Assembly (NCBI RefSeq): GCF_003600835.1
Contig: NZ_NQYC01000001.1
Location: 3,619,001-3,683,000 of the forward strand
Direction of reading: 5' to 3'
Length of the DNA stretch: 64,000 nucleotides
Source of the DNA: Bacillus sp. PK3_68
Lineage (GTDB): Bacteria; Bacillota; Bacilli; Bacillales; Domibacillaceae
The notes beneath the pieces were generated by a model. It did not search any database and had not been told where the DNA came from. It saw nothing but the letters and a program-made list of their open reading frames with translations. Below are positions 9,373-23,284 of the stretch, in pieces. Both the position numbers and the translations under genes were made by a program. Each line of letters starts with the position of its first letter. The stretch's first letter is position 1.

Positions 9373-10221
9373 TTAAGCAGCCAGCTGCCGATACTTGACC
9401 GGTGGCTGGTTGTTTAGTTTCGCTTGAATACGGATATGGTTATAATAGTGAATATAGCTTTCGACAGTTTGCTCTACGATAGCCGTCGTAGTGCTTGTCA
9501 ACTCGTCGAGATAGAACGTTTCAGACTTTAGCGAGGAATGAAACGATTCGATGGAGGCATTATCAGAGGGTGTCCCTTTCCGGGACATACTCATGGTAAT
9601 GCCTTTTTCTTTGACTGCCTGCTGATAAGCATAAGATGTGTACACAGATCCCTGATCGCTGTGCAGAATGCATCCCTCTGGGAGGGGTGGCAGCTGGGCC
9701 AGCGTATGTAGCACAAAATCTGTATTCTGGCAGCTTCCTAAAGAATAGGCAATGATTTCGCCGTTAAATAAATCCTGAATACTTGAAAGATACAGCTGTT
9801 TCTGGCCAAAAGGCAAGTATGTAATATCTGTGACGAGCTTTTGAAGAGGCTGATTTGCCTGGAAATCTCCTTTTAACAGGTTATCGGAAATATGACAGGG
9901 CTGTCCTGTTCGTTTGCGTTTCTTCACTTTTACCCGGCACTGCCAGCCATACTTCTGCATTACACGCTGTACCGCTTTATGGTTAATCGACATCTCTCGT
10001 TTTAATAAGGCCGTGATTTTACGATAACCATATCGAAACTTAAGGTCCCGGCACAACGTGCCGATTTTTCGTTCAACGATCTGCCTGGCTGTTTCTTTCC
10101 GGCTCCTGCTCTTCCAGCGATAATAAGTGGATCTAGCAATGCCGAGATGCCGGCATATTTCCCTGACGGGCATGCTGGTTTGGAGTTCTTTTACTAATTC
10201 TACAGCTGTTTCTGGGACCAC
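9373..10221 (-). CDS. IS3-family transposase OrfB (DDE integrase domain)
   Basis: Catalytic part of the transposase, normally made as an OrfAB fusion through -1 frameshifting. The 282 residues have an N-terminal HTH-like HTH_21 region (GIARSTYYRWKSR near 28) and an rve-type core. The acidic triad is D132 (VTDITYLPFG), D189 (LHSDQGSVYTS) and E225 (PSDNASIESFHSSLK); 35 residues between D189 and E225 give the classic DD(35)E spacing. It overlaps orfA by 22 bases in the -1 frame. No sign of truncation. Confidence 0.95.
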   Translation of the reverse strand: MVPETAVELVKELQTSMPVREICRHLGIARSTYYRWKSRSRKETARQIVERKIGTLCRDLKFRYGYRKITALLKREMSINHKAVQRVMQKYGWQCRVKVKKRKRTGQPCHISDNLLKGDFQANQPLQKLVTDITYLPFGQKQLYLSSIQDLFNGEIIAYSLGSCQNTDFVLHTLAQLPPLPEGCILHSDQGSVYTSYAYQQAVKEKGITMSMSRKGTPSDNASIESFHSSLKSETFYLDELTSTTTAIVEQTVESYIHYYNHIRIQAKLNNQPPVKYRQLAA

Positions 10222-10523
10222 TTCCTCTCCAATTCTTTGTACTTTTTTAGTACTTCAATCTGCTGTTTCAAATACCGATTTTCTTCCTTCAGTTTCTCTG
10301 TTTCACTTTCATACTCAGCCCCTTTTCCGAAGGAATACTGCTTGCCCACTGGCTGTTCAAATCGATGAAACTCGCCTGCTTTGTACCATTTCATCCATGT
10401 TTTAAGCTGTGTCTTATTTCGAATGTTTAATTCCTTTAAGACTTCTTTGACCGGCACCCCAGCTAATCTCATTTTTACAGCCTTCATTTTTACTTCCGCT
10501 GGATAACTGACTCTTGTCCCCAT
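10200..10523 (-). CDS. IS3-family transposase OrfA (HTH protein)
   Basis: A 107-residue DNA-binding protein that recognises the IS ends. It has an HTH region beginning MGTRVSYPAEVKMKAVKMRLAG and a C-terminal leucine-zipper-like coiled coil (EKLKEENRYLKQQIEVLKKY). The start at 10523 is chosen for the GGAGGTG site upstream; the longer frame reads through the inverted repeat. The A AAA AAG heptamer on the minus strand (10248 to 10242) lies in the right register to shift ribosomes into orfB. Confidence 0.9.
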   Translation of the reverse strand: MGTRVSYPAEVKMKAVKMRLAGVPVKEVLKELNIRNKTQLKTWMKWYKAGEFHRFEQPVGKQYSFGKGAEYESETEKLKEENRYLKQQIEVLKKYKELERKWSQKQL

Positions 10524-10680
10524 AGAAAAACACCTCCAAGTTATTTTCGAGTATCCCATACTCGTTTTCAACTTAAAGGTGTTTTTTATTTGTCTCACTT
10601 TATGGGGTCAGTCCACGTCTAAGTGGAACAGCTTTTTTGTTTAGCATCTGGTTCTTATATAGATAAGAGAGGATTTGTAG

Positions 10681-14570: not shown

Positions 14571-14610
14571 TAACCAATAGAAAACTTCTCCAAGAAAAAC
14601 AAAATATCCG

Positions 14611-14639
14611 TTGACAACTGACCAGAATTTTCATAGAAT
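14611..14639 (+). promoter_or_regulatory. Sigma-A promoter of tRNA-Val
   Basis: Perfect TTGACA, 17-base spacer, TAGAAT; the -10 box ends 18 bases before the tRNA. Confidence 0.8.
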
Positions 14640-14657
14640 AGAACTTGTCAGTTGAAC

Positions 14658-14730
14658 GATTCCGTAGCTCAGCTGGGAGAGCGCTACCTTGACAGGGTAG
14701 AGGTCGCTGGTTCGAACCCAGTCGGAATCA
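14658..14730 (+). tRNA. tRNA-Val (anticodon GAC)
   Basis: A 73-base cloverleaf: acceptor GATTCCG/CGGAATC plus discriminator A, D-arm GCTC/GAGC, anticodon stem CTACC/GGTAG with loop TTGACAG (anticodon GAC), and T-arm GCTGG-TTCGAAC-CCAGT. CCA is not encoded. Its 3' part is the attachment site of the integrative element that follows, and integration leaves the gene intact. Confidence 0.96.
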
Positions 14731-14733
14731 TAC
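14688..14733 (+). repeat. attL: 46-bp repeat inside tRNA-Val
   Basis: Identical to 22044-22089. The copies diverge immediately outside (C versus T at the left edge, C versus G at the right). Confidence 0.92.
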
Positions 14734-14734
14734 C

Positions 14735-14765
14735 AAAAAGTCCTTGATTTCAAGGGCTTTTTTAT
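14735..14765 (+). terminator. Terminator brought by the element, next to the tRNA
   Basis: AAAAAGTCCTTG and CAAGGGCTTTTT pair around ATTT, followed by more Ts. It begins five bases after the tRNA and replaces the tRNA's native terminator, which now lies beyond attR at 22092-22136. Confidence 0.8.
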
Positions 14766-14801
14766 TTTGTCCTCATACCCTTAAAGCACAAAAAGGGGGA
14801 A

Positions 14802-14820
14802 TTGGTCACCAATTGGTCAC
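14802..14820. promoter_or_regulatory. Candidate integrase arm-type sites, left
   Basis: Tandem TTGGTCACC-AA-TTGGTCAC, 11 bases apart. The same pair recurs at 21907-21926 near the other end of the element. Paired copies near both att sites suit binding by the integrase arm-binding N-domain; this is inferred. Confidence 0.5.
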
Positions 14821-14865
14821 TCCTAATATGAAATAACCTATTTACTACCGCGCTTCGCTTGCTGG

Positions 14866-14920
14866 CCTCTATAAAATGAGTGAGAACTTCATTCTCACTC
14901 ATTTTATAGAGGTGAAGTTT
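14866..14920 (+). terminator. Long perfect hairpin with T tract at the element's left end
   Basis: A 21-bp perfect stem (14866-14886 with 14892-14912), five-base loop CTTCA, then TGAAG and a seven-T tract. It is the second terminator within 150 bases of the tRNA and lies upstream of the cargo operon, so it probably shields it from read-through. Confidence 0.7.
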
Positions 14921-15010
14921 TTTTCTAAAGGCTAAAAGGTTTATCTTCTTCTACGTAAATATGGTAAATTGTTATTATGAAGTGTTATATAGATCTAGGA
15001 GGGCAATCTC

Positions 15011-15724
15011 TTGTTAAACAGTAAACAGTTAAGATCATTCTATATTATTGAAGCTCCATTCCATTCTTCAACTCAACAAGTATTAGAAGATATACTAAAT
15101 CCAGAGTTGTACTTTGATGGCCGAAAAATTTTTATTAAAACAAATAAAATAGACTCCAACATATCGGAAATAGAGCTTAGATGGGAGACTGTAAAAGAGA
15201 TAAAAACCGAAGAACTAGATGAGTCTGGGGAAATACATAGTGTGGTAAAAAAAATTACAACTGTAGCAAATGTTTCAGTATGGATTCATTCAAATTATTC
15301 ATTTATCTATTTGTTTATAAAATCCGGCGCACTATTAAGAGAAGTATTACCTTACCTGGAAACGTTGTTAAATACAAATTTGAAAAAAATAACCTTTAAC
15401 AATGAATTTTTTTATCAGTTAATAGGATCAAACTTTACTTTGGATTTGTTTCAGTCCTCTTTCCGTTCTAATAATGATAAACAGTTATTTTCTATATCAG
15501 GTGATTTTAGAAAGGCTCTTGACATGAATTTCGACTTTTCAGATAACGTAGTAACTGGGATTACAGTTTTATTCAATTGTCTAAGAGAAACGAAAGCCAA
15601 AGTGTATAAGGCTGGGAAAATAGCGCTTTATAATTCGCCCGATGTAGATGATATTATTTGTATAATTGAAAACATTAGCGATCTATTAATGGAAATGGGA
15701 AAAGGAGGCTTTTCCCTTGAATAA
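15011..15724 (+). CDS. Uncharacterised cargo protein A (237 aa) of the tRNA-Val element
   Basis: I do not recognise this protein. It is soluble, with no signal peptide or membrane helix. It has an acidic alpha/beta N-terminal half that includes strand-rich stretches (ISEIELRWETVKEI, NVSVWIHSNYSFIYLFI) and a second half rich in Phe, Asn and Leu. The start is TTG, with AGGAGGG seven bases upstream. Its last eight bases overlap the start of the next gene, so both are made together. It lies alone with its partner between attL and the integrase module, a typical cargo position. An anti-phage or maintenance role is only a guess. Confidence 0.75.
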   Translation: MLNSKQLRSFYIIEAPFHSSTQQVLEDILNPELYFDGRKIFIKTNKIDSNISEIELRWETVKEIKTEELDESGEIHSVVKKITTVANVSVWIHSNYSFIYLFIKSGALLREVLPYLETLLNTNLKKITFNNEFFYQLIGSNFTLDLFQSSFRSNNDKQLFSISGDFRKALDMNFDFSDNVVTGITVLFNCLRETKAKVYKAGKIALYNSPDVDDIICIIENISDLLMEMGKGGFSLE

Positions 15725-16322
15725 TTTATTAAATAAACTTGCTGCTAATGCTGTATTTGTAATTATTGCAGGACTAGCATCAATAGTATCATTAGTGGTT
15801 GCCTTTATTAATGATAAACAAATTCTTTGGATAATATTGACAATAAATTCCTTTTTATTATTAGTTGTATGGAAGCTTGTAAGCCAAAATTCCGTTATAT
15901 TAGGACGATTAGATAATATAGATTTCTACGTTTTGCAAAGAGAAATAGAGCTTGAAGAAGATGAGGATGAAAAATATGTATCCAAAGGTGATGTAATATT
16001 AGCATTGCAGGCATCATTATCACAAGAGAGTTTGTCTGCTCAACCTCAAGCAACTATAGAAATATCTTATCCCTCACAGCTACAAATTGAATATATATTT
16101 AATAGTGAAAGGATTAGAAGAGACTCCGCGAATTCAGATAAATCTAAATTTAATATTTCATTATCACATGGAATTAGCTTTATTGCTTTGAGATCCATTA
16201 GTATAGGAAAAGAAAATGAAAATGATTTTCTAAGGTCAAGCAGACAAATCATCGTTAAAGTTCAGAGTGACTTATTAAGTGAATCAAAGGAAGAAATCAT
16301 TCCTGTATCTTTAGTTGGATAA
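15717..16322 (+). CDS. Uncharacterised cargo membrane protein B (201 aa)
   Basis: Starts (TTG at 15717, after AAAAGGAGG) inside the end of the preceding gene. Two close N-terminal membrane helices (about 10-30 and 36-55) are followed by a short acidic segment EIELEEDEDEKYVSK (about 80-94). The cytosolic C-terminal domain of about 105 residues looks beta-rich (SYPSQLQIEYIF, FIALRSISIG, QIIVKVQSDL). The layout of a membrane anchor plus soluble domain, coupled to a soluble partner, recalls two-gene defence or signalling systems, but no family is recognised. Confidence 0.75.
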   Translation: MNNLLNKLAANAVFVIIAGLASIVSLVVAFINDKQILWIILTINSFLLLVVWKLVSQNSVILGRLDNIDFYVLQREIELEEDEDEKYVSKGDVILALQASLSQESLSAQPQATIEISYPSQLQIEYIFNSERIRRDSANSDKSKFNISLSHGISFIALRSISIGKENENDFLRSSRQIIVKVQSDLLSESKEEIIPVSLVG

Positions 16323-16356
16323 TTAAAAAGGCTACTTTAAAAGTAGCTTTTTTAAT
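16322..16356. terminator. Bidirectional terminator after the cargo pair
   Basis: ATTAAAAAGGCTACTT pairs with AAGTAGCTTTTTTAAT (G bulge); T-rich on both strands. It separates the plus-strand cargo from the minus-strand integrase operon. Confidence 0.78.
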
Positions 16357-16432
16357 TCTAAAAGTTTTATACAGAATGTGTTAGCGATTTAGAACTATAA
16401 CTGTTGAAGATTCATAAGGAAATTTATATCTC

Positions 16433-16813
16433 TCATTTATAACGGTATAGGAAATTTTTAAATTCTATATTATTTAGAAGCCTTTCTTCACTAACTAATT
16501 TTGCAAAATGAGATGTTGCTTCAACATTACTTTTATTAGAGACCAGAGAGGCAATATCCCTATCTGTCAAAAGTCTGTCGACACAGTCTAATATGAATAA
16601 AGAAATTTTTTCGCTAATTAAAGAATCTTCCGTATCTTTTTCGATAAAATCTATAGGTAATGTATCAATTAGAAGTTTTATAGCTCTAATACTTGACTCC
16701 CATCCGTCATTTTTAAGATCATCGTCTTGAATAATAACTCTTAAGCTCTCATCCTGAATAATATTAACAGGTATGCCTGCTTTTAAGAAAGAATTAAAAA
16801 ATTGTTTCGTCAT
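16433..16813 (-). CDS. Uncharacterised protein downstream of the integrase (126 aa)
   Basis: A soluble, mostly helical, acidic protein starting MTKQFFNSFLKAGIPVN. No known domain recognised. Start at 16813 follows AAAGGATG at proper spacing; an earlier Met is unsupported. It comes 25 bases after the integrase stop on the same strand, so it is the last gene of the rep-xis-int operon and would be expressed when the element excises. A role in element maintenance, immunity or mobilisation is possible; nothing in the sequence decides. Confidence 0.7.
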   Translation of the reverse strand: MTKQFFNSFLKAGIPVNIIQDESLRVIIQDDDLKNDGWESSIRAIKLLIDTLPIDFIEKDTEDSLISEKISLFILDCVDRLLTDRDIASLVSNKSNVEATSHFAKLVSEERLLNNIEFKNFLYRYK

Positions 16814-16838
16814 TTTATACATCCTTTCTAACAATTAT

Positions 16839-17948
16839 TTAAAATAATAATTCATTTATTTTATTAGCAGTCTCAAGCTGCATTGTTGGCAACACATGAC
16901 TATATGTATCTAAAGTGATACGTATATTTGAATGCCCTAATCGTTCAGCAACTACTTTAGGATGAATGCCCTCTTTTAATAAGAGAGTTGCATGTGTATG
17001 TCTTAAATCATGGAAGCGAATACGAGTTACATTCGCTTTTTTTGTTAAACTGTAAAAAGATCTCAACAAATTTCTAGGTGAACATGGTGTGCCAACATTG
17101 GTGCATACAATAAGATCATGATCATTGTATATGAGATCTGCTATTCTTTTCTCATATTGTACAATCTTTTTCTGTTTAGACAAAGCACTCATAGTTTCAA
17201 GAGGAAGAGTAATGCTTCTTAAGCCGGATCTAGTTTTAGCTCCAGGAATTATTTTGTTACCTGTGTGACTCAAAGTTTGTCTTATTGACACTGTATTGCT
17301 AATAAAATCGAGATCTTTCCATCTGAGAGCCAGTATTTCGCCTTGACGCATTCCAGTAGTAAGTGCTAATAGAAAAGCTATATAATATCTGCTAGATTGG
17401 GCTGCTGTTAAAAAGCTTTTAACTTCTTCAATGTCCCATACTTTTAATTCATTTTTAAATGCTCTAGGCCTATCAACTAAAGAAGCAACATTACGTTTTA
17501 CTAGCTCCCATCTCTCCGCCTTATTTAAAGAGTCATTAATTAAGGAATGAATTTTTTGTACATTTTCTCTTGATAATATGTCTTTGTTAATAAGTTCGTT
17601 ATAAAATTTTTGAATGTCCATAGGTGTTATTTTTGAGATCTCCAAATGGCCGAGATATGGGATTATGTAGCGACCAATTAGCCAATTATAAGTTTTAAAG
17701 GTAGATTCTTTTATAATTAACTTTTTATCGTCAAGCCAATTATTCAAATAATCCTTGTAAAGCATCTTGGACGGCTCACTAAATATGCCATTTTTTAAAA
17801 GAGAATGTTCAGCTTCAATTAAAGCATTTTGAGCCTCTTTTTTTGTTTTGAAACCTCGCTTTTTCTTTTGCTTTCTCTTACCATTAACTTTTCCTAACTC
17901 TAATACATAGTACCAAGTGTTTCCATCCTTTTTGACAGAGCCAGCCAA
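16839..17948 (-). CDS. Tyrosine recombinase (element integrase)
   Basis: Carries out integration into and excision from tRNA-Val. The 369 residues have an N-terminal arm-binding domain (MAGSVKKDGNTWYYVLELG... then a KKKRGFKTKKEAQ turn), a SAM-like core-binding domain (about 63-160) and the catalytic domain. The active-site residues R201 (TTGMRQGEILALRW), H313 and R316 (HDLRH), H339 (LGHS) and nucleophile Y349 (TLDTYSHVLP) are all present, so it should be active. It starts immediately after the xis stop. Confidence 0.96.
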   Translation of the reverse strand: MAGSVKKDGNTWYYVLELGKVNGKRKQKKKRGFKTKKEAQNALIEAEHSLLKNGIFSEPSKMLYKDYLNNWLDDKKLIIKESTFKTYNWLIGRYIIPYLGHLEISKITPMDIQKFYNELINKDILSRENVQKIHSLINDSLNKAERWELVKRNVASLVDRPRAFKNELKVWDIEEVKSFLTAAQSSRYYIAFLLALTTGMRQGEILALRWKDLDFISNTVSIRQTLSHTGNKIIPGAKTRSGLRSITLPLETMSALSKQKKIVQYEKRIADLIYNDHDLIVCTNVGTPCSPRNLLRSFYSLTKKANVTRIRFHDLRHTHATLLLKEGIHPKVVAERLGHSNIRITLDTYSHVLPTMQLETANKINELLF

Positions 17949-18146
17949 TTAAAATTCCTCCTTCAAGTAGCTGCCTTCAAGCCAACTTATAAAAACAGTT
18001 TTTAATACCTTAATTCTTCTGCCGACACGAACGATGTGAAAATCTCCTGAATTTACTAATTCATAAGCTTGTCTTCTTCCGATACCTAGTATTTCTTGAA
18101 CGTGCGTAACATCTAGTACTGGTGGATATTGTTCTAATATATTCAT
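17949..18146 (-). CDS. Excisionase-like helix-turn-helix protein
   Basis: A 65-residue DNA-binding protein with a MerR-like winged HTH: VLDVTHVQEILGIGRRQAYELVNSG, then FHIVRVGRRIKVLKTVFISWLEG. This is the common excisionase/HTH_17 pattern that steers integrase toward excision. ATG at 18146 follows AAGGAG at seven bases. It sits between rep and int in one operon; its stop abuts the integrase start. Confidence 0.88.
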   Translation of the reverse strand: MNILEQYPPVLDVTHVQEILGIGRRQAYELVNSGDFHIVRVGRRIKVLKTVFISWLEGSYLKEEF

Positions 18147-18162
18147 AAAGGTCTCCTTAATC

Positions 18163-19239
18163 TTAGCTCGAATGGTTTGATAAGAATCTTTTACTTCTTT
18201 TTTTCTTTTCCTCGTTAAAGGTAGTGTTTCTGTTATATAACTTTGATTCAGTCCATAGTCTTGCAATTTCAGCAGTAATTTCTAAACTCTCATGATTATT
18301 CAAAGTTCCGACTGATATAAGCAAACCAGCAATTTGATCTAATAGTTGTTCTGTATTTCCTACTTTCACTTTTTTTCTTATGGCAGGCGAGAAACGTTGA
18401 TTTAAATCGGCATTTTGAACAACTAACCATCGAGAATCTAATGGCCATCTAGTTTTATTCTTATCAGGCCTTGGAGTTTTCAAAGTTAACCACTCGCCTG
18501 TTAAGTATGACCAAATGTTGTTTTCTCTTAAAATAAAGTCATCAATTGAATTGATGCCAAATTCTTTCAGGCATTTTCTTCTAATTTGAAATTCAACTCT
18601 CCATACAGGTTTACTTTCCTTCCAAAACTTTTCTTTCCATAAATCAAAAAACCAAAATTTTTGAGAGGATCTTACCTCAAGTGTTTTGTTATAAATACGA
18701 GCTAGCAATGGATCACCACGCCCCATTGTAAAACCACTAAATTCGCTGCCGTTATAATACTCATCGTTTACAAAATGCTTTGCTTTTCCTCTTGCTTTAG
18801 TTACTACATGTTCCATGTCTTCTTTGTTAAAAGGTGTTTCGTCACTATCCACACAAATATCTATTCTAGATAGCTTAGTGGTTGTTATACGTATTCCTAA
18901 GCCAGTTAGCCAATTTAAAAAGTCATTAACAGCTTTTGTAAAACCTACTGACCAAAGATATGTAGCAAGAAATCGGACTTTAATAGGTGATGTATTCTTG
19001 ACTTCTTTATCCATGAAATACATTAGAAAATCATTGCATGACAATTTATAAGCATAGAAAGGAATCCCATTCCTATGTACTTTTAAACTTAATCCGTTAA
19101 GTTGAGTTTCGCATTCTTTCGTTTCTTCTTGAGCTTTTGACTTAAGAGAAGCTAAGATGTCCAATGTACTTTTTAAAGAGTTAAAATAGTCTGGTACCTC
19201 AACTCCGAATTCTACTGTATCAATACCTTTAATAATCAA
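18163..19239 (-). CDS. Rep_trans-type replication initiator / relaxase
   Basis: A 358-residue protein related to rolling-circle initiators of the Rep_trans group, which includes the ICEBs1 relaxase NicK and plasmid Reps. The supporting blocks are KLSRIDICVDSDETPF (about 122-137), GFTMGRGDPLLARIYNKTLEV (about 168-188) and VWRVEFQIRRKCLKEFGI (about 210-227), as in that family. TTG start with AGGAGGAG upstream. It is the first gene of the minus-strand operon and lies beside two stem-loops that could be its origin. Whether it acts as relaxase or replication initiator, or both, cannot be decided. Confidence 0.78.
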   Translation of the reverse strand: MIIKGIDTVEFGVEVPDYFNSLKSTLDILASLKSKAQEETKECETQLNGLSLKVHRNGIPFYAYKLSCNDFLMYFMDKEVKNTSPIKVRFLATYLWSVGFTKAVNDFLNWLTGLGIRITTTKLSRIDICVDSDETPFNKEDMEHVVTKARGKAKHFVNDEYYNGSEFSGFTMGRGDPLLARIYNKTLEVRSSQKFWFFDLWKEKFWKESKPVWRVEFQIRRKCLKEFGINSIDDFILRENNIWSYLTGEWLTLKTPRPDKNKTRWPLDSRWLVVQNADLNQRFSPAIRKKVKVGNTEQLLDQIAGLLISVGTLNNHESLEITAEIARLWTESKLYNRNTTFNEEKKKRSKRFLSNHSS

Positions 19240-19274
19240 TAAATCTCCTCCTAGTCTTAAATTTGTAATTAGAA

Positions 19275-19299
19275 CCCCGCATGTTATATGGGTGCGGGG
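19275..19299. other. Candidate nick site / origin stem-loop upstream of rep
   Basis: A 7-bp perfect stem CCCCGCA/TGCGGGG with an 11-base loop, the only GC-rich spot in an AT-rich region, 36 bases before the rep start. Size and position recall the GC-armed oriT of ICEBs1 near nicK. The call is by analogy. Confidence 0.45.
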
Positions 19300-19343
19300 A
19301 ATAGAAAAGTAGATTCTTTATACATCCCGTTTATTAGATATTT

Positions 19344-19370
19344 CTGGACAGTTCTTACAGACCTGTCCAG
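19344..19370. other. Second origin-region stem-loop
   Basis: An 8-bp perfect stem CTGGACAG/CTGTCCAG, again with an 11-base loop, followed by AGCTAGCT. It lies 45 bases from the first stem-loop and may be part of the same origin or a terminator-like structure. Confidence 0.4.
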
Positions 19371-19414
19371 CTAGCTATAAAAGGTCGTTATCTATATCGG
19401 AATATAAAAAAAAG

Positions 19415-19556
19415 TAACGAGATTCGTTAGTTAATACTTAAAAAAATACAAATACATAAAATATGGGTGGGAAGTAACGAAACCCGTTAATAAGATAATA
19501 CTAAAAGCTCTCCCTAGGTTCAAGATATTTATGAAAAAAATTATCGAAACTCGTTA
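19415..19556. promoter_or_regulatory. Three repressor operator-like palindromes
   Basis: Three 15-base sites share TAACGA-N3-TCGTTA: 19415-19429 (perfect), 19475-19489 (one mismatch) and 19542-19556 (one mismatch). The first two are exactly 60 bases apart. The third overlaps the -35 box of the XRE gene promoter (TTATCG, 17 bases, TAAAAT at 19564-19569), and the first faces the rep operon. They are the likely binding sites of the divergent XRE repressor controlling both itself and rep-xis-int. Confidence 0.65.
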
Positions 19557-19605
19557 GTAGTGATAAAATAAGAGTAAATTTAGTTAGAATTATAAGAGGT
19601 GTATT

Positions 19606-20055
19606 ATGGATAAGAAAAAAATGATACAACGCTTTCCTATTGGATCTAATATCAAGTCTTTAAGAAAAGAAATGAAATGGACACAACAAGAGTTAGCCAA
19701 AAGGATCGGTGTTTCTTCTCAAATGATCTCGAATTGGGAAAGAGAGTATACTACACCAACTGTTGAAGATATTGCAAAACTTGCTCAGGAGTTTAACGTT
19801 AGTACTGACAAAGTTCTCACAGGGTTTGATAAAGAGGTTTTGACCAATTATTTTGTAGGTGCTACGCAAATTAGTGCCTATATTCAGGATTTTATTAAGG
19901 TACACGGGGAAGAAATGGTAATTCAGTTTCTAACTAATAACTTAGATATTGAAAGCTTATTGAATTCTAATATGAAAATTAACTTTAAAGATAAAGTGTT
20001 AACTCAAAAGGACAAGAAAAAAATCATTGATTTGATCAAATTAATTTATCAATGA
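19606..20055 (+). CDS. XRE-family repressor of the element
   Basis: A 149-residue Cro/C1-type regulator. The N-terminal HTH (about 15-68) reads NIKSLRKEMKWTQQELAKR, then IGVSSQMISNWEREYTTP. The helical C-terminal part (about 75-149) should mediate dimerisation. It is transcribed away from the rep-xis-int operon across a 366-base control region carrying three palindromes. By analogy with ImmR or Stl it would keep the element dormant. No ImmA-type protease gene lies nearby, so its inactivation must work otherwise. Confidence 0.9.
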   Translation: MDKKKMIQRFPIGSNIKSLRKEMKWTQQELAKRIGVSSQMISNWEREYTTPTVEDIAKLAQEFNVSTDKVLTGFDKEVLTNYFVGATQISAYIQDFIKVHGEEMVIQFLTNNLDIESLLNSNMKINFKDKVLTQKDKKKIIDLIKLIYQ

Positions 20056-20288
20056 TTTTGACAGTAGTAAGGTACTTTCCGTTGAAGAAAGTCTTTTTAA
20101 AATATTACATATTTACCATGAAAATTGTCATTTGGTGGTATATTTAGTAAGATGATCATATATTCTGAATCATCTTATTTTTTTGCCTAATTTTCAAGAA
20201 AATTTTGATTGGTTGTGATACGTCCTATCTATTTAATCTATGTAATATAAGATTTTAATTATTTTAAATATTGAGGTAGGTGGCCTTA

Positions 20289-21893
20289 TTGAAACTCTCA
20301 TACTATCTTTTTAATGAAAATTCAAAGGACTTTCAAGATCTAATATTACCTAACAAAGTTAACGAAGAAAATAACTTTGTTGAGCTGCAATCTAATAATG
20401 ACAATTTAGAATTTGAATGTAAGGTTTACATTCAAAAAAACAAAACAAAGGAGCCTAAGTGGCTTTCATTTCTAGAAGAGGATTTAATAATTCCTGATAG
20501 AGACGAAATAAGAAATACAGTTAATTCATTTGTTATTTTGATAAGAATTATAAAGGAAGAGACCCCTTATTTCTTTGCTATTACAGGTGGATTTGGTTTT
20601 ACTGCTATTAACAGAAATAACCTAGAGAATCAGTTTGGGTTAAAGGTGGCGTTAAACGCAATTGACTCAAAAGAGCTTAAAGCGTTTGATGTAAGGAATA
20701 TTGACCTGAAAACAAAGCAAAAAAGAGTACTTATAAATAAAGGGAGTGAAATTGGAGAATTTGATTTAGACTTTGAGCAAGACCTTATAAACCTAGTATC
20801 TGGGAAATCAAGTAGTGAGGAAGTTGGAACATCAATAAAGGGTACTACATCTTCTTTAAGTTTAAATAGTGATATTACTTTCTCACAACTAGGTGAGAAG
20901 TGTACACAGTTACTAGATTTATATCTTAGTGATCGATATAAAGAAAACTTTGGCTTCATTGATAATATTAAAGTTGTAAGAGATGCAGAAACGGTTTCGG
21001 TTCTACAGAAAAAAATGTTCGAAACACTTAGAGATCGTGATACACATCATATCTCACTAGCATATCCAGATATGATTGAGTATGAGAGATGTTCAAGTTA
21101 TAAAATTTATATCGGGCATAAAAAAGTTGAGACCGAAGAAGTTATTTTAGAAGATGTCTATTCTTTATTAGATGAAATAGAATTTGCTAAACCCGACCAG
21201 ATAAGTAAAATAAAAATTGTAGGATTAGATGATTCAGAGGCAGCAGTCACTCAATCTGTTACCTTAAATCACTTTATTATTTATCAAACTCAAATTGAGG
21301 AAGATACTTATATCTTTTCACTAAATAACTGGTATAAAATTGATAACGATTATTTTACAAAAGTTCAAAATGATATTATGGAGTTACCTCTTTTGGAGAT
21401 TGAAGATTTTCTAACCGATATAAAAGAAGGTGAATCAGAAGGAAGCTACAATGAAAGACAAGCGACTGAAAACTTCCTGTGTTTGGATAAAAAGAATTTT
21501 CAAGTGGCTGGATCACGAAGTAAAATTGAGGTTAGTGATTTATATTCTAAAGAAAAACACTTTGTGTGTGTAAAGAAGAATACTTCCTCAGCAACTTTAA
21601 GTCATCTTTTTGCACAAGGATCGGTTTCAATGCAGCTGTTAAGGGAATCTGTTGAATATAGACAATTCCTAATAACTAAAATTAGAGAGAAATTTCCGGA
21701 AGAGCAATACGATGAACACAATTTTCCTTTTAGTGATTGTACACTAGTTTATGCAATATCTACACATAGAAGTGAGGACATTAGAGAAGTATTGCCTTTT
21801 TTCAGCAAAGTTAATTTGCTGCATCACGTGAACTTGATTAGACGGTTAGGAATAAAAGTTGGTTTATATAAAATAAATGTAATAGAAAATTAA
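20289..21893 (+). CDS. TIGR04141/DUF6119 family cargo protein
   Basis: A protein of 534 residues matching the sporadically distributed TIGR04141 (DUF6119) family. Seen are the N-terminal KLSYYLF strand, a block around 95-125 with FFAITGGFGF, NQFGLKVALNAID (family pattern FGLR-ALNA), and a C-terminal region with HFVCVKKNTSSATLSHLFAQGSVS. The family is patchily distributed and often lies on mobile elements and near restriction or other defence genes; its activity is unknown to me. TTG at 20289 is preferred (AGGTGG five bases upstream); a GTG three codons earlier is possible. It is the last gene before attR. Confidence 0.8.
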   Translation: MKLSYYLFNENSKDFQDLILPNKVNEENNFVELQSNNDNLEFECKVYIQKNKTKEPKWLSFLEEDLIIPDRDEIRNTVNSFVILIRIIKEETPYFFAITGGFGFTAINRNNLENQFGLKVALNAIDSKELKAFDVRNIDLKTKQKRVLINKGSEIGEFDLDFEQDLINLVSGKSSSEEVGTSIKGTTSSLSLNSDITFSQLGEKCTQLLDLYLSDRYKENFGFIDNIKVVRDAETVSVLQKKMFETLRDRDTHHISLAYPDMIEYERCSSYKIYIGHKKVETEEVILEDVYSLLDEIEFAKPDQISKIKIVGLDDSEAAVTQSVTLNHFIIYQTQIEEDTYIFSLNNWYKIDNDYFTKVQNDIMELPLLEIEDFLTDIKEGESEGSYNERQATENFLCLDKKNFQVAGSRSKIEVSDLYSKEKHFVCVKKNTSSATLSHLFAQGSVSMQLLRESVEYRQFLITKIREKFPEEQYDEHNFPFSDCTLVYAISTHRSEDIREVLPFFSKVNLLHHVNLIRRLGIKVGLYKINVIEN

Positions 21894-21906
21894 ATGGACA
21901 AAACAC

Positions 21907-21926
21907 TTGGTCACCAAATTGGTCAC
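21907..21926. promoter_or_regulatory. Candidate integrase arm-type sites, right
   Basis: TTGGTCACC-AAA-TTGGTCAC, the counterpart of the pair at 14802-14820 with one more base between the repeats. Lies 118 bases before attR. Confidence 0.5.
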
Positions 21927-22043
21927 GTGTTTTAAATAATTTAAGATTACTACAGGTAATTAGAAGGTAATGTTATTGTTGTGTTTTTACTGTCAGTAGC
22001 ATTAGCGCTATTGTGGGCTATTATAAGCTATTTAGCACCATAT

Positions 22044-22089
22044 CTTGACAGGGTAGAGGTCGCTGGTTCGAACCCAGTCGGAATCATAC
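22044..22089 (+). repeat. attR: 46-bp copy of the tRNA-Val 3' end
   Basis: Perfect copy of 14688-14733 holding the anticodon loop, T-arm and acceptor 3' strand. It lacks the 5' half, so it is not a functional tRNA. Confidence 0.92.
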
Positions 22090-22091
22090 GC

Positions 22092-22136
22092 AAGCGTCAG
22101 AACGTTATGAAAGTAGCGTTTCTGGCGCTTTTTTAT
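22092..22136 (+). terminator. Displaced native terminator of tRNA-Val
   Basis: AAGCGTCAGAACG pairs with CGTTTCTGGCGCTT, followed by TTTTTATTT, directly after attR. In the uninterrupted chromosome this would follow the tRNA gene. Confidence 0.72.
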
Positions 22137-22264
22137 TTGTGTGGGCTTGTTTGTTGAGCAAGGTAGTTTCTTATTTAGCACATGATGATTCTTTTGATTC
22201 GCTTATAAGATACTTGAAGACTAGACACGCCTTAGTAGTTGAAGAACCTGCTTGACTTTTCTTT

Positions 22265-22308
22265 AAAAACGAACAAGCCCGTCTGGCAGCTAACCAGAGG
22301 GCTTGTTC
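22265..22308 (-). terminator. Terminator of the SLH protein gene
   Basis: Stem GAACAAGCCC/GGGCTTGTTC with additional inner pairing; the AAAAAC on its left reads as a T tract on the minus strand. It ends one base before the stop codon. Confidence 0.8.
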
Positions 22309-22309
22309 A

Positions 22310-23284
22310 TTAATTGATTTTCATATGTGTGATTGCATACTCAAGTCGATCATGGATACCCATGTATGTTTTAGCTTCTCTAGAGCCTTGTTTGCCTACT
22401 TCGTAATAAGGATCCTCGCTTTGACCTTGGTAACAATAATAATAGTTATTTATCTTTTTAATTAGATAGTAAGGTGCATCTTCAAAGAAGTTTTTCCATA
22501 AGGAAGCAGGAATGATATGAATCGATCCAGCGAATGGTGTATAGCCAAGATGAGTATCATTATTATAATAAAAGTTAACCGAAAACACTTTATCCTCATT
22601 TATACCTAATCCATCATCAAATACGACTTGAGATTTCATGTAGTTAGGCAATTCTAATTTAAAGTGGTATTTCTCATTAGAAAAAGTAAAGGTTTTAAAA
22701 TTGTCATTTAAAGCTTTTGCTAGAAAAACAGAAAATTGAGCACGTGTAAGTGTTGTACTTGGTTTAAATGTTCCGTCCGGATACCCTAGAGTAATATTAT
22801 TCTCAGCTAGAGCAGAGATGTATGGATAAGCCCAATAACTTGGAGGAACATCTTTAAAGCTAGTCTTTTTCGTTGATTTTAATTTAAATCCAGAAGTAAG
22901 CATTCTAGCCATTAATTCACGAGTCATTGGTTCATTTGGTTTTAAATACGCACTTTTTGGAAAGATTCCCTCATCCACAATAGCTGCCGCATATTTATAG
23001 CCGCTATTCATGGTGGATAAGTCTTTAAAGCCTGGATTTGGTCGGTTAGATAAATCTAGATTTAGAGCCCTCGCCATTAATATCATAGCTTGTAATCGAG
23101 TAACCGGTGCTTGCGGACGAAATGAATTATCGTAAAAACCGTTAATGACTTTTTTGTCTGTTAAGTATGTAATTTCATCTTTTGCCCAATAATCACGGCT
23201 CACATCTTTAAACGCAGCCGAAGCAAAGGTAGTGCCTGTAAAAGTTAAACAACAAACTAACAGTAGACTAAATAATCTCTTCAT
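22310..23284 (-). CDS. S-layer homology (SLH) domain surface protein
   Basis: Exported cell-surface protein of 324 residues. A signal peptide (MKRLFSLLLVCCLTFTG...ASA) is followed by three SLH repeats. These begin FKDVSRDYWAKDEI (about 25), FKDLSTMNSGYKYAAAI (about 86) and FKDVPPSYWAYPYI (about 145), each with the GF/GYPDGTFKP-type and TRAQ/TREL motifs. SLH triplets bind pyruvylated secondary wall polymer. The last 125 residues (FSNEKYHFKLELPNYMKSQ...) form a domain of unknown function. AAAGGGG site before the ATG. Confidence 0.88.
   Translation of the reverse strand: MKRLFSLLLVCCLTFTGTTFASAAFKDVSRDYWAKDEITYLTDKKVINGFYDNSFRPQAPVTRLQAMILMARALNLDLSNRPNPGFKDLSTMNSGYKYAAAIVDEGIFPKSAYLKPNEPMTRELMARMLTSGFKLKSTKKTSFKDVPPSYWAYPYISALAENNITLGYPDGTFKPSTTLTRAQFSVFLAKALNDNFKTFTFSNEKYHFKLELPNYMKSQVVFDDGLGINEDKVFSVNFYYNNDTHLGYTPFAGSIHIIPASLWKNFFEDAPYYLIKKINNYYYCYQGQSEDPYYEVGKQGSREAKTYMGIHDRLEYAITHMKIN

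Follow-up and report, generated by a model that had tools for sequence, protein, structure and literature searches.

Two overlapping genes in a small integrative element of Bacillus sp. PK3_68, referred to here as P1 and P2, encode one soluble and one membrane-anchored product, neither of which belongs to a recognised family. The pair, found within the 64,000-nucleotide stretch of DNA that was analysed (hereafter, the window), consists of real genes with a firm anatomy. The reading favoured here, to which a probability of about 45% is attached, is that P1-P2 is an accessory pair of the abortive-infection type, carried as cargo in the attachment-side slot of the element, in which P1 would hold P2 in check.

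Anatomy and Coding Status of the P1-P2 Pair

P1 (15011-15724, plus strand) encodes a soluble protein of 237 amino acids, and P2 (15717-16322, plus strand) encodes a protein of 201 amino acids comprising two N-terminal membrane helices followed by a β domain (approximately residues 65-201). The two genes overlap by 8 nt, and both start with TTG preceded by a Shine-Dalgarno-like sequence, as read directly from the sequence. A terminator-like site made up of a perfect inverted repeat of 21 bp and a T-run (14866-14912, plus strand) lies between the tRNA-Val gene and P1, and an 18-bp inverted repeat (94%) with T-runs on both strands (16321-16357) lies between P2 and the following gene, P3; for the latter site, the scanner gives the minus-strand reading only, the plus-strand T-run being seen in the sequence itself. 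Overall, eight terminator-like sites were counted in 14601-22400 as compared with 3.1 (sd 1.8) in shuffled sequences. The earlier description of two overlapping genes with terminators on both sides, made by a sequence-only reading of this DNA, was therefore borne out.

When 14915-16330 was resampled 2,000 times with a first-order Markov model, the longest open reading frame (ORF) reached 132 amino acids, and thus neither the 237 residues of P1 nor the 201 residues of P2 can be put down to chance. When codon usage was scored in all six frames, the annotated frame came top for both genes under both models used. The absolute scores under the host model (built from 29 other ORFs of the window) were near zero and hence weak (0.004 for P1 and −0.016 for P2), and training the model on the genes of the element itself gave a clearer coding signal (0.124 and 0.145, respectively). 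The G+C content of the pair (0.30) likewise resembles that of the other element genes (0.29-0.33) and not that of the window (0.40).

No hydrophobic stretch over the cut-off was detected in P1, and two were detected near the N-terminus of P2. A single-sequence structural model of P2 displayed two long N-terminal helices and about 12 strands (mean pLDDT 69.0, pTM 0.52), from which the protein is predicted with moderate confidence to consist of two membrane helices and a β sandwich. The hydrophobicity scan and the P2 model thus agree with the original assignment of a soluble first product and a second product with two N-terminal helices and a β-rich domain. Such an arrangement is not rare in itself, given that a simple scan of the gathered loci returned 12 pairs with a membrane ORF behind a soluble one, most of them unrelated.

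The Host Element and Its Integration Site

The pair resides in a small integrative element of tRNA-Val(GAC) with direct repeats and with tyrosine integrase, excisionase-like, initiator-like, and repressor-like genes all present. The integration target, detected by both ARAGORN and Rfam, is the tRNA-Val(GAC) gene at 14658-14730 (plus strand), the 3' part of which belongs to the attL repeat (14685-14742). The attR copy of this 3' part (22041-22098, plus strand), located by the direct repeat and by comparison with a congener, is 91% identical to attL over 58 nt, giving an integrated element of about 7.36 kb. P3 (16433-16834, minus strand), an unnamed small gene for a protein of 133 amino acids, separates P1-P2 from the tyrosine integrase gene (16839-17948, minus strand; Pfam PF00589, 5e-29). 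Next in order are an HTH_17 protein (17949-18266, minus strand; PF12728, 5.5e-10), probably the excisionase judging by its gene position, and a replication-initiator-like protein (18163-19239, minus strand). The latter has no Pfam match of its own and was recognised by tblastn through its similarity to plasmid genes annotated as "replication initiation protein" (best E 4e-17, 29%) and to a Thermus phage replication endonuclease (E 6e-15); its counterpart in a sister element described below matches Rep_trans at an E-value of only 0.046, and the protein is presumably of the rolling-circle type. An HTH_3 repressor-like protein (19606-20055, plus strand; PF01381, 9.5e-19) and a second cargo gene encoding a DUF6119/TIGR04141 protein (20280-21893, plus strand; PF19614, 1.6e-134; TIGR04141, 3.5e-127) complete the element. 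Elsewhere in the window, two overlapping minus-strand ORFs at 9373-10598 resemble, on visual inspection, the transposase gene pair of an insertion sequence of the IS3 type.

The borders of the element are backed by comparison with the congener (G022), in which a different insertion occupies the same tRNA-Val site: its left flank runs up to this tRNA (81% over 1,967 nt), its right flank restarts at an att copy about 49 kb away (86% over 1,546 nt), and the roughly 36.5 kb compared of this stretch of about 49 kb showed no similarity to the element at the DNA level. The tRNA-Val site is an integration hotspot, as shown by the other insertion of about 49 kb in G022 (L085 and L086). The label of "satellite" initially given to the element is not retained here because no packaging or capsid match was recognised among its proteins (all eight searched in Pfam and six of the eight in PHROGs); P1, P2, and P3, being without a family, leave room for a satellite of an unknown type.

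P1-P2 as Cargo

Relatives of the integrase were collected from 19 of the 24 genomes of the family (its own genome counted) and from a wider genome collection, with 80 of 538 loci being kept. A tRNA scan of 31 integrase loci, two of which (L041 and L094) appear to be one place, placed a tRNA-Val gene beside the integrase gene in 11; the other 20 had no intact tRNA-Val there, one of them having a tRNA-Ala instead. The gap between tRNA-Val and integrase, counted from where the integrase match ends, spans approximately 67-171 bp in ten loci and 411 bp in another (L089), as opposed to 2,108 bp in the window. The existence of an accessory cargo slot between attL and the integrase, as originally put forward, is upheld by this comparison of the window with the 11 relatives. 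The pair does lie between attL and the integrase gene, with P3 as an additional small gene between it and the latter.

The locus with the 411-bp gap, L089:4358-11572 of Paenibacillus foliorum, is a sister element. Like the window element, it targets tRNA-Val, is about 7.2 kb in size, and is bounded by an att repeat (47 bp, exact); the identities between the two elements amount to 60% for the integrase (Int), 46% for the initiator-like protein (Rep), 35% for the repressor (cI), and 25% for P3, the excisionase-like protein (Xis) being matched at an E-value of 3.7e-24. The two differ in their cargo. An AIPR protein matching the AbiU model of PADLOC with 660.6 bits sits in the sister element at the end occupied here by DUF6119, and thus the other slot of this element family holds a known abortive-infection gene in the sister. 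In place of P1-P2, the sister carries an ORF of 119 amino acids without a Pfam match, and no P1 or P2 was detected in it by a search at E 0.5. The long gap in the window and the absence of the pair from this search together lead to P1-P2 being regarded as an inserted accessory unit. The P3 homologue (L089:9341-9796), on the other hand, lies within the sister's backbone, between Rep and Xis, whereas P3 of the window follows Int; P3 is accordingly read as a relocated backbone gene and not as cargo.

DUF6119 is rare, exceeding the cut-off in nine of 397 genomes of the order (its own genome counted), and the copy in the window is 73% identical to that in another locus (L061). On one annotated plasmid, a type I restriction locus contains DUF6119 between its S and R genes, and on another DUF6119 lies just upstream of AbiH; in two further plasmids, no defence neighbours were evident. 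A PADLOC scan of six chosen DUF6119 neighbours gave three strong matches (REase_I, PDC-S25, and Old/GajA-like), one weak match, and two without any. No published description of DUF6119/TIGR04141 was found in a literature search.

Searches for Families and Homologues

Profile searches of Pfam, NCBIfam, PHROGs, and PADLOC yielded no family above chance for either protein, including no toxin-antitoxin family in Pfam or NCBIfam and, even at E-values of up to 10, none of the system protein models of PADLOC-DB 2.0.0 (2023). The initial statement that no family is known for either product is hence supported by the profile libraries searched. No relatives of P1 or P2 were retrieved from 72,556 plasmid records, 50,697 phage records, or IMG/VR, and the 24 family genomes and 397 order genomes returned, for each protein, itself plus one chance row. 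The genome collection was queried for P1 only, using exact 8-residue patterns that find close relatives only, and no relative was obtained.

A Three-Gene Module with a Similar Ending

A module of three genes, designated a-b-c, was encountered in seven loci from Bacillales genomes and one viral contig (L043:2839-5644, L100:2762-5520, L177:4607-7346, L179:4134-7270, L180:2885-5947, L182:4514-7349, and L183:205-3249). Two of its products are soluble and the third is a membrane protein, and in all seven loci the module ends with the soluble gene b overlapping the membrane gene c, the same order as that of P1-P2. Its carriers include a tRNA-Val element, a viral contig, and sites beside defence genes, with three of the seven loci located near such genes (one beside Gabija and two near GmrSD). 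No convincing family was found for the members tested in Pfam, NCBIfam, PHROGs, and PADLOC, nor was a published account of the module found in a literature search. The a proteins measure 356-467 amino acids and the c proteins 338-369 amino acids, and between three and five hydrophobic stretches were counted in each of the five c proteins scanned; c is therefore larger than the 201-residue P2 with its two stretches. Separately, in L184:5869-7582, on a plasmid with phage tail genes, the membrane protein encoded after a is not c but another one with four helices, which suggests that the membrane partner of a can vary.

The likeness of P1 to b is weak and inconsistent. In a pool of 1,139 proteins, the sole non-self match of P1 at E 0.5 was a b protein (E 0.3). 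With a six-sequence b profile, P1 ranked first of 363 and above all 200 shuffles in local mode and 154th in semiglobal mode; with a four-sequence b profile, it ranked 23rd and 255th in the respective modes and 532nd of 1,140 by hmmsearch. Given that several profiles and modes were tried, the good ranks are selected ones. In pairwise comparison with P1, 13 unrelated proteins scored higher than any b protein, and hhalign returned E-values of 0.048-0.85 for P1 against b. The b proteins themselves match poorly across branches (Z of −1.2 for the b proteins of L043 and L100; profile E 0.1), unlike their a and c partners, which do match. P2 did not match the c profile, no a was found in the window's own genome at E 0.01 with a two-sequence profile (A2), and no plus-strand ORF of at least 60 amino acids exists between attL and P1. 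It is unlikely, though conceivable, that P1-P2 represents a reduced and rapidly evolving version, two genes in size, of this undescribed Bacillales module. In such a system, translational coupling would tie a soluble sensor to a membrane effector; tRNA islands, viral DNA, and defence islands would house the complete set of genes, and small integrative elements would carry the minimal form lacking a.

Proposed Function of P1-P2 and Alternative Explanations

In the proposed mechanism, the two helices would fix P2 in the membrane, leaving the protein to act through its β domain, and translational coupling would allow P1 to be made at a level matched to that of P2. P1 would bind P2 and keep it off until P1 senses infection; P2 would then damage the membrane such that the cell stops the invader, be it a phage or a rival element. 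The location of the β domain relative to the membrane, the contact between P1 and P2, the sensing step, the membrane damage, and defence itself are all inferred, and an anti-phage function is the leading guess from the genomic context. Counted in favour of defence are AbiU in the sister element, the occurrence of DUF6119 near defence genes, and the parallel with the architecture of a-b-c. Counted against it are the failure to find homologues of P1 or P2 in the collections searched, the 12 chance soluble/membrane pairs of the scan, the dependence of the P2 model on one sequence, and the absence from P1 of the simple catalytic motifs looked for; it also speaks against this reading that the element may have no defence gene other than DUF6119, and that DUF6119 itself was met without evident defence neighbours. 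The odds, in descending order, are given to defence, addiction, service to the element, passenger genes, and a second-messenger pair.

The likeliest alternative, though an improbable one, is that P1-P2 maintains the element, with P2 as a membrane toxin and P1 as its antitoxin, punishing loss of the element and not being selected against phages. Two overlapping genes, a membrane partner, and a small element with a replication-initiator-like gene would all suit such a pair, to be set against the failure of both proteins to match any toxin-antitoxin family in Pfam and NCBIfam and the lack of such a pair in the sister element.

Somewhat less probable again is a role in serving the element, whether by exclusion of a second copy, docking to the conjugation apparatus of a helper, or partition at the membrane. 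A membrane-anchored protein near the integration module would fit this role, and the title of PMC7563843 names a Rep-Trans-family protein as the relaxase of some mobilizable elements, a precedent by which the window element could be mobilizable. The pair nevertheless stands outside the backbone and was not found in the sister element, which keeps Int, Xis, Rep, cI, and P3. Slightly lower still is the chance that P1 and P2 are passengers without a present function, drifting in one strain; the failure to find relatives in the collections searched points this way, against which both frames are intact, with codon use that is coding-like under the element model and with good ribosome-binding sites.

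Significance

Small integrative elements are a shelter for many unnamed accessory genes, and P1-P2, the cargo nature of whose slot is shown by a sister element carrying a known abortive-infection gene, offers a compact test object of 1.3 kb with two genes and its own terminator-like sites. The a-b-c module, likewise without a family in four curated libraries, is more widespread and more testable than P1-P2, and it may be the more valuable lead of the two.

Comparison with CBASS and Panoptes

A structure-based search had been suggested for both proteins. It could be carried through for P2, the β part of which resembles many Ig-like sandwiches without any stand-out match; for P1, the single-sequence model (pLDDT 42.8) was unusable. 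Neither Cap15 nor OptE was present among the 50 matches listed in each P2 structure search. The first viral structure match of P2, BFVD A0A8S5TNC2, is an uncharacterised siphovirus protein of 200 amino acids that aligns with P2 end to end at a low TM-score and low identity.

A CBASS- or Panoptes-type second-messenger pair, in which P1 would make or handle a nucleotide signal and P2 would be a 2TM-β effector like Cap15 or OptE, shares with P1-P2 the order of a soluble gene followed by a two-helix, β-rich membrane protein, but is very improbable since P1 contains neither GGD nor a nucleotidyltransferase-like pattern (nor any other of the simple catalytic patterns tried as regular expressions), a nucleotide second-messenger synthase being sought in P1 by family match and motif at the sequence level only and not found, and since P2 has no PADLOC match at E-values of up to 10 and its structural matches listed are mostly Ig-like sandwiches.

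Among well-studied systems, these are the ones closest in architecture to P1-P2. Panoptes (optSE) and CBASS with Cap15, the effectors of which are of the S-2TMβ type, have, as P1-P2 does, a soluble gene followed by one for a two-helix, β-rich membrane protein; OptE itself is described in the available part of PMC12657218 as a two-pass element fused to a β-barrel domain. They differ in having a nucleotide synthase as the soluble partner, the signature of which was not found in P1, and in their effectors, which show no sequence match to P2, the fold of the latter being predicted at moderate confidence to be sandwich-like. By analogy of architecture, and as far as the available part of PMC12657218 describes it, the two-helix β effector of Panoptes and CBASS is the nearest well-studied counterpart to the arrangement seen in P1-P2.
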